A DNA stretch of 64,000 nt from Geothrix sp. (GTDB taxonomy: Bacteria; Acidobacteriota; Holophagae; Holophagales; Holophagaceae). Below are positions 36,697 to 49,549 of the stretch, one piece after another. Location of the stretch: the NCBI RefSeq assembly GCF_020622065.1, contig NZ_JAHRYQ010000001.1, positions 1,860,001 through 1,924,000 of the forward strand, read 5' to 3'. The position numbers were made by a program, and so were the translations under genes. The notes beneath the pieces are model-generated. The model saw only the letters and a list, made by a program, of their open reading frames with translations. It made no database searches and was not told the DNA's origin. How positions within the stretch are numbered: the first letter of the stretch is position 1; the number at the start of each line of letters is the position of its first letter.

Positions 36697-36712
36697 AGCG
36701 CGATTCGTGCCA
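36697..36712 (-). promoter_or_regulatory. Predicted sigma-54 promoter (-24/-12), site A
   Basis: On the minus strand TGGCACG then four bases then GCGCT: the -24 element is perfect and the invariant GG and GC are exactly ten bases apart. Transcription would begin near 36685, just upstream of the ribosome site of the 241-residue exported protein. Confidence 0.65.
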
Positions 36713-36777
36713 GTTGTTTAGTCTTTATATAACTTGATTAATGCCAACAATGGCAGCGCGACGCGCGGGGCTACTCC

Positions 36778-36811
36778 ATCAAGTTGAAGGATGGTGACCT
36801 TCAAAGTGAAG
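36778..36811. promoter_or_regulatory. Upstream activator element, copy A
   Basis: ATCAAGTTGA (36778-36787), ten bases, CCTTCA (36798-36803), four bases, GAAG (36808-36811). It comprises the palindrome TCAA-G-TTGA and the inverted repeat CCTTC-N5-GAAG. It starts 66 bases above the -24 T of sigma-54 site A, with an AT-rich tract (36713-36755) between. Copies B and C have the same layout. Confidence 0.6.
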
Positions 36812-39932: not shown

Positions 39933-41393
39933 CTAGAGGCCTGCGCTCTTCTGTCCGGTAATGCCGTCGCCGGATACGACCAGTTCCACGCGCCGGTTTT
40001 CCTGCCGGCCCGCAGCCGTTTCATTGGTGGCGATGGGGCTTTCCTTCCCAAATCCCTTGAAGGTGATGGAATCGCTGGCGACACCTTGGCTCACGAGGAA
40101 ATCCATCGTGTTCTTGGCGCGCTGTTCCGACAGATGCTGATTGAGGGCATCGCTGCCGTTGCTGTCCGTGAAACCGTCCGCTTCGACCTTCAGCCCCTTG
40201 TGGGTGGACAGGATCCCCGCGATCTTCGACAGCTTCTCCCGCGCGGCGGGCAGCAGGGTGGCTTTCCCGTTCTGGAAGAGGACGCCGGACATGTTGACGA
40301 TCAATCCGCGGGCCGTAGCCCGGGTCTGAAGCACCGCATTGAGCTGCTCCATCAGCTTGGCCCGAAGACCCTCGTTATTGGCCCGGAGCCCCTCGTTCCT
40401 GGCCTTGAGCCCAGCATTCTCCAGCTCAGCCTGGCGGGTCTTCTGAAGGGCGGCATCCTCGGCGGCGGCAGCCATGGCGGTCTCCCGCTTGGACGCATCC
40501 AGCTTGTCCTGGGCACCCTGTCGCTCCAGGGCCAGCCGTTCCACATTCTGCTTCTGGACCGAGATCAGGCGGGCATCCTCAGCCCTCTGCACGGCTTCCT
40601 TCGCCGCCATGACTCGGGCCTTCTTGCCGCCCTCCTTGATTTCAGCCTGGGCGAGGTAGCTCTCGGACTTGCCGAACGCCTCGGAGGCATAGGCCTGGGC
40701 CCCGGTGGCACGGGCGATCCGCACGGCATTGCGGGCCTGGAAGACATGGAACGGCGTCTTCTCATCCATGGCCAACGGCGCCATGGCGTCGAGGTTCAGG
40801 GTGTACTGACCCCGCTTCAACAGCTCGAATTTGGCGTCGATGAACTCGAACTGCTCCTTCGAGCCCTTGCGGATCGCATTCTCCATCACGACCACATTGC
40901 TGGGCTGGCTGACGGCGAAATAGGGTTCGGCGGTCACGATGAGACCGAAGGTCTGAAGCTTCTCGGTGACCTTGATCTTGCCCTTACCCCTCTCCAGGAG
41001 GAGCTCTCCCAGATTCGTGGCGTTGCCCTCGGGGGAGATCCCCCACACCACATAGGTGAGGAACTCGCCGCCGAAGCTCGAGGCCGGAGGGAGATTCTTG
41101 AACTTGGCGGTGATCTGGATCGCCCCGTCTTCACTCTTCACCCGGGCCTCGCCGGAGGCGTTCGCGACGAGCACCGTGCCCAGGAGGTCGATCTCCGTGG
41201 AGTGCTTCAGGTTCCGGTAGTTGATGGCCTTGGCGGAACCCTGGACGACCGTCACCCGGTACAGGGGCACCGTCGTGGACTGGGCCTGCGGAGAGGGGGC
41301 GGCATTGAGGTAAGGAGTGGGCGCCGCGGTCGGAGTGCCCGCTTGGGCCACCAGGAGCGCGGTCATGAATGGGATCGTTTTCCACATGATCAT
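39933..41393 (-). CDS. OmpA-family outer-membrane / peptidoglycan-binding protein
   Basis: A 486-residue protein. A signal peptide (MIMWKTIPFMTALLVAQAG) leads into a beta-rich N-terminal domain (about 40-200), a DUF4398-like helical hairpin and coiled coil (about 230-350, SESYLAQAEIKEGGKKARVMAAKEAVQRAEDARL), and a C-terminal OmpA domain with the peptidoglycan motif DGFTDSNGSDALNQHLSEQRAKNTMDFL. It tethers the outer membrane to the wall or acts as a periplasmic spacer. An AAGGA site lies seven bases before the ATG at 41393; a second ATG at 41387 is possible. Confidence 0.85.
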   Translation of the reverse strand: MIMWKTIPFMTALLVAQAGTPTAAPTPYLNAAPSPQAQSTTVPLYRVTVVQGSAKAINYRNLKHSTEIDLLGTVLVANASGEARVKSEDGAIQITAKFKNLPPASSFGGEFLTYVVWGISPEGNATNLGELLLERGKGKIKVTEKLQTFGLIVTAEPYFAVSQPSNVVVMENAIRKGSKEQFEFIDAKFELLKRGQYTLNLDAMAPLAMDEKTPFHVFQARNAVRIARATGAQAYASEAFGKSESYLAQAEIKEGGKKARVMAAKEAVQRAEDARLISVQKQNVERLALERQGAQDKLDASKRETAMAAAAEDAALQKTRQAELENAGLKARNEGLRANNEGLRAKLMEQLNAVLQTRATARGLIVNMSGVLFQNGKATLLPAAREKLSKIAGILSTHKGLKVEADGFTDSNGSDALNQHLSEQRAKNTMDFLVSQGVASDSITFKGFGKESPIATNETAAGRQENRRVELVVSGDGITGQKSAGL

Positions 41394-41481
41394 GTGTAGG
41401 TCCTTCAAAGGGTCCATGAATGGGTCAGCCCACGCCTCCGGACCCGGATGGCGAGGGCCATGCGGCAGAATGTTCGATCGA

Positions 41482-41757
41482 TCAGCCCCGCAGGTCGCTG
41501 GCCGCGTCAGCCACGCCACGCTTCAGGTCATTGGCCGCCAGGGTCGTCCTGCCCTTCAGGTCATCCCAGGTATCGCCCGCCTCATCGGCCAGCGCCCCTG
41601 CCTTGCATTTCGCGCGGGCGGCGAGGTCCTTCAGGTTCCCGCGGAGTTCGGGACCGGTCTTGGGCGTGGTCAGGGCCACCACCACGGCGCCGACGGCAGC
41701 ACCGGCGAGGAATGTGAGAAGCGTGGGGCCGTAGGAAGAAGTCTTGGATTCGGTCAT
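41482..41757 (-). CDS. YtxH-domain small protein
   Basis: A 91-residue protein with an N-terminal Gly/Ala-rich membrane segment (YGPTLLTFLAGAAVGAVVVALTTPKTG) followed by an amphipathic helix with KDLAARAK and DDLKGRT. The pattern GxxxGAxxALLxAPKTG is typical of YtxH (stress-related) proteins. AGGA precedes the ATG at 41757; an ATG at 41763 is the alternative. It starts 11 bases after the DUF948 gene, so the two are in one unit with dps. Confidence 0.82.
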   Translation of the reverse strand: MTESKTSSYGPTLLTFLAGAAVGAVVVALTTPKTGPELRGNLKDLAARAKCKAGALADEAGDTWDDLKGRTTLAANDLKRGVADAASDLRG

Positions 41758-45602: not shown

Positions 45603-47420
45603 TTAAGGCGCGGGGACATTGACGGTGTTGGTGTCCAAGGCGATGGTTCCAGCGAGCGTCGCACCGGCCAGAATCCGGCCGTTGATCACGGAGCCGGTCT
45701 TGGCGGTGACATCCCGGCCCGACACGATGGTTCCGTAGAAGATGGTTCCAACGCCGACCGTCGCATCCAGGGTGGGTACCCAGAACACATTCTTGGCCTG
45801 AGCCCCATTGGCGAGCGACACGCTGGCCGTGGTGGTCAGCGAGGAGCCGATCTGGAAGACCCAGACGGCATTCGCGTTGCCACCCGCATCGAGAATCAGA
45901 GGCGTCGAGACCAGGATCGTGCTGCCCGAGGTGTAGGTTCCGGGGGGCACGCCGAGAGGATAGACGGCCGCCAGGTCGGCACCGGCCGAGATGGTGGTTC
46001 CGGGAGGCAGGTTCTTGGCGAAGTTGTAGGCGACCAGGAGGTCGATACGAGCCTGATGCGAGACGGTGTCATTGATGTGGATGGTGCCGTTGACCTGAAC
46101 GGGCAGCAGCCCATTGGAGGTTCCGGGTTCCAGAGACACATCCCCATTGATGAGCGTGCCGGCACCGGTATTGGTGATCGCTGCAGTCGCCATGATGCCG
46201 AAGGTGCCGGCCGAACCCAGCGCAACGCCACCGGGTGCTGCGACTGTACCCGTGGTGAAAGTCCAGGGATTGGAGGCGAGTCCAGCGACCAGGGCATTGC
46301 CGGACAGGTCCTTGGCACCCGTGATCGTGGCCGTATAGGAGGTGCTGGCGGCCAGGGGGCTGGTGGGAGTGAAAGTCGCGATCTGGGTGACCGCATTGTA
46401 GGTGAGCGCACCCACCACCAAAGAACCCAAGGGCGGGCCGGTGGGCTGGACCGTGAAGGTGGCCGTGGTGAGGGTCAAGGGGTCCATGGCCTTGCTGAAG
46501 GTGGCATTGACCGAGCTGTTGACCGCCACATTCGTGGCCAGGTTCGCGGGGTTGGTCAGGGTGATGGTCGGCGGCGGCGTTACGAGGGCCGCGGTGGTGA
46601 AGGTCCAGATGTAGTTGCTGGCGGCAGGTAAAGCGGCCTGGTTGCCCGCGAGGGCATTGCCGGCCAGATCCGTGGCGGCCGTCGTGATGGTCGCCGTGTA
46701 GGTGGTACCGGCGACCAGCGTCGTCGGCGTGGAAGGCGTGAAAGTCGCGGTCCGGGCACCCACGGCATAGCTCACGCTGCCGGCGGGGGATACACCAGGC
46801 GCAGCCGTCGTCACCGTGAAGCTGGCGGCGCTGATCGAAGCCGGAGCCATGTCTTCAGTGAAGGTGGCGGTGATGGCCGTATTCGTGGGAACGGCGGTCG
46901 TCGGACCCGGGATGGTCGTCGCGGGAACGGTCAGCGTCACCCGGGGGCGGGTCGCATCCACCGCGATCCCCGTGGTGAAGCGCCAGACATAGGGGCTCGC
47001 CAACGGAAGGCCCGTCGCGAGGCTCTTGGCGCCGGTGATCGTCGCGGTATAGACCGTCAGGTTTGCCAGCGTGGTGGCGGGCGCCAGCGTGAAGGTGGCG
47101 ATCCGGTTGGTGGCGTCCAGCGCCACGGTGCCCGTGGGAGACACCGCCGGGCTGGCGGCGGTCACCGTGAAGGTCGCCGTTCCCGTGATCGGGGCCATCG
47201 GTTCGCTGAAGCTGGCCGTGATGACCGTATTGTTGACCGGCACGGCCGTGGCGTTATTGACGGGGGCCACGGCAGTCACGGTGGGCGCAGCCTGGAGATT
47301 GGCAGCCAGGCTGCCACCGCCCAGGATGGGGTCGCCCCCTCGGCATCCCGCCGCCAGCGCGATCAGCAGCAATCCCATGGGGACCATCGACCGCGTCAGT
47401 AGACTTTCGACTCTGTTCAT
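45603..47420 (-). CDS. DUF3494 ice-binding-like lipoprotein with Ig-like repeats
   Basis: A 605-residue surface protein. Its signal ends in a lipobox (LLLIALAAGC). Three Big_5/SbsA-type Ig-like domains follow (about 45-155, 165-285, 290-395), each starting with a PxNxATxVPVN-like motif and ending with WRFTTG, WTFTTA or WTFTTG. The C-terminal 200 residues are a DUF3494 domain (LGSAGTFGIMATAAITNTGAGTLINGDVSLEPG ... GTYTSGSTILVSTPLILDAGGNANAVWVFQIGSSLTTTAS), the fold of ice-binding proteins and adhesins. It is probably an adhesin or matrix protein. AAAGGAG precedes the ATG at 47420. Confidence 0.85.
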   Translation of the reverse strand: MNRVESLLTRSMVPMGLLLIALAAGCRGGDPILGGGSLAANLQAAPTVTAVAPVNNATAVPVNNTVITASFSEPMAPITGTATFTVTAASPAVSPTGTVALDATNRIATFTLAPATTLANLTVYTATITGAKSLATGLPLASPYVWRFTTGIAVDATRPRVTLTVPATTIPGPTTAVPTNTAITATFTEDMAPASISAASFTVTTAAPGVSPAGSVSYAVGARTATFTPSTPTTLVAGTTYTATITTAATDLAGNALAGNQAALPAASNYIWTFTTAALVTPPPTITLTNPANLATNVAVNSSVNATFSKAMDPLTLTTATFTVQPTGPPLGSLVVGALTYNAVTQIATFTPTSPLAASTSYTATITGAKDLSGNALVAGLASNPWTFTTGTVAAPGGVALGSAGTFGIMATAAITNTGAGTLINGDVSLEPGTSNGLLPVQVNGTIHINDTVSHQARIDLLVAYNFAKNLPPGTTISAGADLAAVYPLGVPPGTYTSGSTILVSTPLILDAGGNANAVWVFQIGSSLTTTASVSLANGAQAKNVFWVPTLDATVGVGTIFYGTIVSGRDVTAKTGSVINGRILAGATLAGTIALDTNTVNVPAP

Positions 47421-47589: not shown

Positions 47590-47730
47590 CTACCGGGGCG
47601 ATGGGAGTCCCGGGGCTGGTAAGTGCGTGTGCAGGCGGGCGCATCCGGACTGGGAACCCACAAGGGCAGCGCCCGTCAACATGCCGGTCCAGAAAACGAC
47701 GCCTCGAATCAATGCCTCTAGAAGGCTCAA
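47590..47730 (-). CDS. Possible small secreted or membrane peptide (46 aa)
   Basis: A TTG at 47730 with GAGGAG seven bases upstream opens a 46-residue frame ending in TAG at 47590. The product has a hydrophobic N-terminal region (LIRGVVFWTGMLTGAALVGSQSGC) followed by a Pro-rich tail, resembling a signal or lipoprotein peptide. It begins about 20 bases after the expected start of transcription from sigma-54 site B, exactly where a first gene should lie. The non-ATG start and short length keep this tentative. Confidence 0.4.
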   Translation of the reverse strand: MSLLEALIRGVVFWTGMLTGAALVGSQSGCARLHTHLPAPGLPSPR

Positions 47731-47759
47731 TAGGGAACTCCTCATCTGAAGTTCTTCTG

Positions 47760-47775
47760 GGCAGGTTTCGAGCCA
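47760..47775 (-). promoter_or_regulatory. Predicted sigma-54 promoter (-24/-12), site B
   Basis: On the minus strand TGGCTCG, four bases, CTGCC: GG and GC exactly ten bases apart. It would transcribe the small peptide frame at 47730 and, after a leader of about 330 bases, the DUF3494-OmpA genes. Confidence 0.6.
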
Positions 47776-47840
47776 ATTGCTTACATCAATTAATTCAGCC
47801 TTTAAATTATTTCGATTTGATAAGCGTGCTAACCTTCTCC

Positions 47841-47873
47841 ATCAAGATGAACGACTGCTCCTTCAGTCCGAAG
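47841..47873. promoter_or_regulatory. Upstream activator element, copy B
   Basis: ATCAAGATGA (47841-47850), nine bases, CCTTCA (47860-47865), four bases, GAAG (47870-47873). It starts 66 bases above the -24 T of sigma-54 site B and ends 14 bases before the activator's own ATG, so it could serve both activation of the surface operon and autoregulation. The AT-rich tract between (47776-47829) contains ATCAATTAATT, close to an IHF core. Confidence 0.6.
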
Positions 47874-47887
47874 GATGAAGGGCACCC

Positions 47888-49549
47888 ATGCGCGCCGATG
47901 ATCTGGACCACAAGGAACTGCTGGAGCTGCATCCAGAGAGCGGGGTGATCCGCTTTGCGGGGCAGCGGGCGATCCTCCTCGATGCCGTGGCCATGGGGCT
48001 CCTCCGCAAGTACCTCGTCGAGAACTTCGGCCTCATGGCCGCGCGCGTGGTCCTCACCCAGTTCGGCTTCGCCCACGGCTGGCGCATGGCCGAAGCCCTC
48101 CAGACCGAATTCAAGTGGGACGACGATGACCAATGGCGGCGGGCCGGCAACCGCATCCACACCTTGGGGGGCCTCTTCGGCGTCGGGTCCGAAAGCAGGG
48201 ATCCCCTTTCCAAGGAGGGGATGATGCTCCTGACCTCCTACGAGGCGGAACAACACCTCCTGCACTTCGGCCGCGCCGATGCCCCCATGTGCTGGACCAT
48301 CTGCGGTCTCATCAGCGGGTACTTGAGCCGGATCGCGGGCCAGGAGGTCTTCGTCCTCGAAGACCGCTGCCAGGGCAAGGGGGACGCGGGTTGCCACCTC
48401 TTCGGGCGCACCCGGGAGGAGTGGGGTGACGCGCGGGCCGAAGAACTGCGCTTCTATGACAAGAATCGCCTGTCAGATTGCCTCGATGTGTCGATCCACC
48501 GCGTCACCGAGACCTTGAAGGCCGCCGAGCGAAAAATCAAAGAGCATCGCCGGGCGCTGGTCGCGGTGGCCCAAGAGGGGGATGAGCCGATCCTCGGGAT
48601 CGTCGCCAAGAGCCTGGCCATGAGGCAAGTCGTGGATCTGGCCCGGCGCGTGGCCAAGGTCGATTCCACGGTCCTCCTCACGGGAGAAAGCGGATCGGGC
48701 AAGGAGCGGGTCGCCCGCCTCGTCCATGAGGAGTCCACGCGGGCGGCCGGCCCCTTCATCGCAGTCAACTGCGGCGCCATTGCCGAAACGCTGCTGGAAA
48801 GCGAGCTCTTCGGCCATGCGCGCGGCGCGTTCACGGGGGCGACCCACGACCGGCCGGGCCTCTTCGAGTCGGCCAACGGCGGCACCCTGCTGCTGGATGA
48901 GGTCGGCGAAGTCTCTCCCGGCATGCAGGTCAAGCTGCTGCGCGCGCTCCAGGAACGGGAAATCCGGCGGGTCGGCGAGAACAAGAACCGGAAGGTGGAT
49001 GTGCGCATCATTGCCGCCACCAACCGGGATCTGGCTTTGGGCGTCATGGATGGCAACTTCCGCCAGGACCTCTATTACCGGCTCAAGGTCGTGGAGCTGC
49101 ATGTGCCGCCCCTCCGGGAGCGCCGGGATGACATCCTGCCTCTGGCCCGGGTGCTGCTTGCCGGTTCCGCGCTGTGGATGAAGCGCAAGATCTCGGGCCT
49201 GACCCCGGCCGCGGCCGATCAGCTCCTCCGCCATGCGTGGCCCGGCAATGTGCGCGAGCTCGAGAATGTCATGGAACGGGCCGTCGCACTTTCGCCGGGG
49301 CCCCGCGTGGAGCTCGAGGACTTGCCTGAGGAGATCCGGCGGGCCTGCCCCATTCCCGTGGCCCTCGATGGCTCCGTCAAGCCGCTGGAGGAGGTCGAGA
49401 AGGAATACATCCTCGCGGCCCTGGCCCTGAATGCCGGGAATCAAACCCGGACCGCCGAGCAGCTTCAGATCGGCTCTGCGACGCTCTACCGCAAGCTCAA
49501 GAGCTACGGCCTGATCGGAAGCAGCCGCTCGGCCCAACACGGCAGCTGA
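47888..49549 (+). CDS. V4R-domain sigma-54-dependent transcriptional activator
   Basis: A 553-residue XylR/DmpR-like enhancer-binding protein. Residues 1-190 form the XylR_N plus V4R sensor, with Cys161 and Cys169 in [16 protein letters not shown]. The AAA+ domain has Walker A GESGSGKE (266-273), the sigma-54 contact loop GAFTGA (313-318) and Walker [11 protein letters not shown] (332-341). A Fis-type HTH ends the protein ([25 protein letters not shown]). V4R domains bind small hydrophobic ligands; the ligand is unknown here, and no aromatic catabolism genes are nearby. An enhancer-like element ends 14 bases before its start. Confidence 0.93.

Follow-up and report, generated by a model that had tools for sequence, protein, structure and literature searches.

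Sigma-54 activators of the XylR/DmpR type have tandem upstream sites, and bacterial lipoproteins, the substrates of signal peptidase II, carry a canonical lipobox with a Leu-type residue at −3, a small residue at −1 and then Cys; RskA_C (PF10099) is the C-terminal domain of anti-sigma-K factors. Features resembling each of these occur at, or in relatives of, a small-gene locus in a 64,000-nucleotide stretch of Geothrix sp. DNA, the whole of which is termed the window here. From upstream to downstream the locus contains:

47888–49549, plus strand: divergent sigma-54 activator with XylR_N, V4R, AAA+ and Fis-type HTH domains (Pfam)
47860–47872, minus strand: putative activator half-site 1, TTCGGACTGAAGG, with similar sequence (by eye) in most of 15 upstream regions
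47839–47851, minus strand: putative activator half-site 2, TTCATCTTGATGG, with an exact TTCATYTTGAT in 12 of these 15 regions
47761–47775, minus strand: sigma-54-like promoter site B, TGGCTCGAAACCTGC, the best GG-N10-GC site, at the equivalent place in all 15 regions, although weak in L012
47738–47743, minus strand: ribosome binding site GAGGAG, its AGG invariant in a 10-sequence alignment
47590–47730, minus strand: small gene with TTG start, 46 codons plus stop, recognised from homologues, aligned start codons and codon constraint in relatives
45603–47420, minus strand: next gene, encoding a protein with Big_5 repeats and DUF3494/Ice_binding (Pfam E values 8.4e-56 and 1.8e-38, respectively), likely ATG at 47420

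The TTG start codon of the small frame occupies 47730–47728 and its TAG stop 47592–47590 on the minus strand, and the predicted product, MSLLEALIRGVVFWTGMLTGAALVGSQSGCARLHTHLPAPGLPSPR, has a signal-like hydrophobic stretch, then Cys30, then a short tail. The original prediction of a 46-residue frame with a hydrophobic segment and a Cys, following GAGGAG and a TTG, is an accurate description when the minus strand is read directly, and the distance it gave of about 340 bases from site B to the DUF3494 start is borne out (−12 element to ATG 47420). OmpA and BON envelope genes (Pfam) lie downstream of the DUF3494 gene. The small frame is quite probably the first gene of a sigma-54 operon, in a reading that allows for the window copy being a minimal lipopeptide as well as for its being an early relic.

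The promoter is assigned to sigma-54 from its sequence, by GG/GC elements at −24/−12 spacing together with a conserved upstream activator-site motif. A loose sigma-54 pattern, TGGCNCGNNNNNTGC, has two matches in the window vs 1.93 expected. When the best GG-N10-GC site was sought 90 to 135 nt from the activator start in 15 loci, the window included, it was found at 112–114 nt in 13 of them and at 121 nt in L009 and L012. The TTCATYTTGAT motif upstream of the sigma-54 site is inexact in L038, L009 and L012 only, and in the window 65 nt separate the core of half-site 2 (TTCATCTTGAT) from the sigma-54 TGG. Whole-length relatives of the activator, 75–89% identical, are present in 10 of 36 other genomes of the genus, with a further copy in pieces (81–84% identical) in G028. 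In two assemblies the activator reading frame ends early, at L033:5001–6542 (514 residues) and L035:5001–6452 (484 residues), which may be real or an assembly error.

The 15 loci compared are all divergent from orthologues of this XylR_N/V4R sigma-54 activator. A homologous small frame is present in 12 of them, and in every one of the 12 a start codon stands at the aligned position, 30–34 nt downstream of the sigma-54 C (31 nt in the window), the interval containing a purine-rich ribosome site. The start is TTG in eight (the window, L031, L003, L033, L035, L005, L074 and L070), GTG in L032 and L036, and ATG in L038 and L046. There is also an ATG at the start position in L034, L009 and L012, but the body that follows is frameshifted, diverged or without the Cys. 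The frame is open through the Cys, at about codon 30, in 10 of the 15 loci, the window among them; relatives with an intact Cys have products of 71–146 residues, except for L033 at 51, and at 46 residues the window frame is the shortest intact copy at the site-B promoter among the loci compared. On this comparison of sequences, the small frame belongs to a real, conserved gene family in Geothrix. A sixteenth locus, L055 (G082:C46), outside these counts, has a long form below what appears to be the same divergent activator. No such frame was seen by eye in the other activator loci displayed, including L037, L010, L011, L041 and the Myxococcales records. The small proteins tested gave no Pfam or NCBIfam match at cut-off, a profile search of the PDB yielded a single match (E 0.44), and a literature search returned no title or abstract opening on this small gene family.

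Codon-level comparisons indicate that, on balance, the small frame is a coding gene in the relatives. Over whole frames dN/dS is 0.31 for L005–L070 (120 codons, Fisher p 5e-7), 0.33 for L035–L036, 0.44 for L005–L036 and 0.50 for L074–L032; for L005–L074 it is 0.88 over 99 codons, which is not significant. In all eight pairs tested, four of which include the window, pN/pS is lower in the proposed frame than in any of the other five, and the ratio pooled over 12 frames (first 33 codons, 29 in L003) is 0.71 in the proposed frame vs 0.90–1.14 in the other five. Single-pair ratios spread widely over these few codons, some exceeding 1; over the first 32 codons dN/dS is 0.95 for window–L032, 1.25 for L031–L033 and 1.81 for L031–L003. 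Purifying selection at the codon level is seen in several pairs of relatives, but the branch leading to the window gives no clear sign of it.

At the site-B promoter of L046 the frame is 146 codons long, and the gene after it is of the DUF3494 type. An RskA_C-like domain is found in L046 and in proteins at other places in other Geothrix genomes; the RskA_C model matches all seven members of a set (A2) comprising L046 and these related proteins (best E 2.7e-7), and the NCBIfam 'anti-sigma factor' model matches three of the seven (best E 3.6e-5). The L046 protein itself scores 20.3 bits against PF10099, below the Pfam gathering cut-off of 29.4, with E values of 7.1e-4 for the full protein and 0.023 for a 130-residue piece, and a structure model made from its single sequence has a mean pLDDT of 42.6. 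No RskA_C match was obtained for the window frame in the Pfam scan. When a profile was built from the small frames, L046 and L003 being left out, the N-termini of all ten long-form proteins, L046 and L055 among them, matched it with E values of 1.3e-8 to 0.012, the best shuffled control being 0.18; the signal/Cys part is thus common to the small gene and to a wider family of proteins. Whether the RskA_C-like domain was lost or gained is a direction that we infer.

Long RskA_C-like Cys proteins are also encoded at L056, L057 and L059–L063, each under a TGG-N10-GC sigma-54-like site, with TTCATTTTGAT upstream in L057 and L062 and ATCATTTTGAT upstream in L056 and L059. Within the cluster downstream of the window's small frame, the OmpA-like gene at 39933–41519 (minus strand) has a weak RskA_C-like stretch (E 1.7e-5 vs the long-form protein).

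A pattern of activator site, gap and TGG-N10-GC, composed after viewing the two window copies and relatives, is found three times in the window's own genome and, in reversed control form, not at all; the third copy was not used in composing it. These copies are:

Copy 1, in the window, minus strand: site B
Copy 2, 36698–36788, minus strand: TGGCACGAATCGCGC, activator site, 65 nt and sigma-54 site
Copy 3, C2:1021419–1021509 (locus L098:3420–3996), own genome: preceding a 55-codon TTG-start paralogue

At 32 nt below copy 2 stands the ATG (36665) of a signal-bearing gene that is uncharacterised. The paralogue below the C2 copy, MSVPTTLVRRVAFGLAWLTGLALFSLQFACRSTREGRQASHRVDTSMHPPNPTPF, has a stop overlapping the following gene's likely ribosome site, with further small genes downstream, and had been matched earlier by the small-frame profile A1 (E 3.6e-5). 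A search with its 55 residues gave confident matches in its own genome only, the next best (E 1.7e-4) being to the site-B family in G066. Across the class, a related pattern is present in 40 of 93 genomes and the control in none, although some of these matches, those with other spacing, are probably due to chance. The elements are 63–67 nt apart at 40 of 41 sites inspected (40 picked by eye plus the C2 locus; up to two frames considered per site, eight sites being without a frame). Among the frames listed, a family-like Cys frame, judged by eye, occurs only at the C2 locus and at L155 in G. limicola, where a 49-codon frame with an ATG start stands at another promoter; L159 has a family-like frame without the Cys, and the kinship of a 33-codon frame at L170 is uncertain. 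Genes of other kinds follow most of the remaining sites, four of them DUF3494/Big_5-like by eye (L171, L175, L188 and L189).

An open frame of this size is not in itself remarkable: of 5000 mononucleotide-shuffled leaders, 1603 (32%) contain one that begins within the first 40 nt and runs for 46 codons or more, and in 48 of the 5000 GGAG is also suitably spaced from it. The case for the gene thus rests on conservation. That the frame arose by chance in a GC-rich leader is nonetheless extremely unlikely, being contradicted by cross-species homology, conservation of the start and codon constraint. Only slightly more credible is the view that the conserved leader is a regulatory RNA element in which the frame is incidental. 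The leader is long, its ribosome site and start codon persist even where the body has decayed, and for six of the 15 predicted consensus pairs one sequence or more has changes on both sides, but there is no Rfam match at gathering score, the leader folds no better than its shuffles (z −0.80; 5′ ends, z −0.29 to 1.48), the covariation term, 0.06, is unfavourable, and there is a third-position excess in the proposed frame. The RNA-element reading was rejected given the lack of an Rfam match, of unusual folding and of favourable covariation. Translation might alternatively begin at an in-frame ATG at 47745 (51 codons), which overlaps the ribosome site and was absent from the earlier description. 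ATG is the stronger start and this one is also in frame in L031 and L005; however, its use would leave a leader of only about 4 nt with GAGGAG overlapped, and it is absent in L032, L033, L035, L070 and L074, out of frame in L003 (by one inserted base) and stopped after five codons in L036. With the upstream ATG unusable in these seven relatives and a start codon at the position of 47730 in 12 of 12 homologous frames, TTG 47730 is favoured, and initiation at the ATG is improbable.

A more substantial challenge concerns the window copy itself, which may be a pseudogene remnant reduced to the promoter-proximal stub, with the rest of the decayed gene lying in the 310 nt that separate TTG 47730 from the DUF3494 start. 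This is a serious possibility, if short of an even chance, and it overlaps the preferred reading, such that the two likelihoods do not add. Consistent with it, the copy has only 46 codons and no clear tail homology, its branch is without constraint (changes are spread 3/3/3 over the codon positions, five nonsynonymous and four synonymous), and the copies in L034, L009 and L012 are broken or diverged. Furthermore, the window clusters with L003 and L031 in the activator tree (support 100), and both of these sister lineages have lost the Cys, L003 having a stop at that codon and L031 a Gly; stops in close relatives, which the original prediction had named as counting against a gene, are in part what is seen. 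Against decay, the window frame, Cys, ribosome site and start are all intact, in-frame pN/pS is 0.43–0.64 vs four relatives (a value confounded by shared history), and short forms recur, as in the 55-codon paralogue in the same genome, the 49-codon frame in G. limicola and the 51-codon L033. Core first and second codon positions of the window differ from those of L031, L003 and L005 by 0.23–0.27, vs 0.29–0.39 at the activator fourfold sites, whereas the more distant L038 shows no such deficit (0.47 vs 0.41); the lower divergence is a weak sign of constraint, shared history included.

No clearly homologous tail was found beyond codon 46 of the window copy, comparison of the following sequence with relatives' tails giving a shuffle p of 0.044 in one of seven comparisons and at least 0.17 in the other six. 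The tails of L005, L070, L074 and L032 are mutually related (L005–L070, L074–L032 and L005–L074 being the matches used among those listed, the rest of which, from a search at high E value, are mostly noise), and relatives' tails overall fall into unlike groups. A nonsense-mutation origin of the window stop, which by eye seems to fall opposite a Trp codon of L005, is not claimed because similarity beyond codon 46 is not significant vs L005 or L070. In L031 (Geothrix campi; L031:4568–4843) the frame continues, by eye, into the apparent C-terminal end of the OmpA gene, as though a deletion had removed the DUF3494 gene and the greater part of the OmpA gene. The window copy is a short and possibly eroding member of a real gene family. 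The proposal of a real first gene of the operon stands with respect to descent, in that promoter, ribosome site and start are kept and several of the related frames evolve as coding; it stands less well with respect to a useful protein from the 46-codon copy, given its tail, its branch changes and its sister lineages.

On the reading of a first gene in a sigma-54 operon, the divergent XylR_N/V4R activator, sensing some signal, would bind the two putative sites some 65–100 nt upstream and fire the sigma-54 promoter (47775–47761), with a transcript beginning near 47749. Ribosomes would use GAGGAG and initiate at TTG 47730, giving a 46-residue signal-anchored protein, presumably exported and lipidated at the Cys in the lipobox position, with the DUF3494, OmpA and BON envelope genes following on what may be the same transcript. 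The relatives with an intact Cys would make 71–146 residues (51 in one case), with the RskA_C-like domain in one lineage. Since only the signal/Cys part and a short tail are left in the window species, the product would be a minimal lipopeptide or an early relic. It may even be, though we consider this rather unlikely, that a V4R-activator sigma-54 envelope regulon in Geothrix has as its lead product a minimal signal/Cys peptide of some 46–55 residues, begun at a weak TTG and repeatedly shortened to its membrane-targeting part as the functional unit. Were this so, that part might act, for example, as a membrane-stress lipopeptide or as a feedback signal to the regulon. The promoter code obtained here, an activator site followed after about 65 nt by a sigma-54 element, is concrete enough to open a Geothrix envelope regulon to direct testing, and reading a promoter and an unusual start in raw sequence can expose a real small gene family.

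In comparison with RskA_C proteins, the long form L046 and its relatives are alike in matching the domain model, whereas the window frame is without the domain and has only the signal/Cys part that precedes it. The window frame resembles bacterial lipoproteins in having a hydrophobic stretch and a Cys that follows a small residue, but at the lipobox position it reads Q-S-G-C, of which −1 fits the general rule and Gln at −3 does not, making this an atypical putative lipidation site. The putative activator sites have a sequence of their own, different from those of XylR/DmpR-type systems; by contrast, the XylR_N, V4R, AAA+ and HTH domains of the activator, the divergent promoter and the two putative sites 21 nt apart are all similar to that type.
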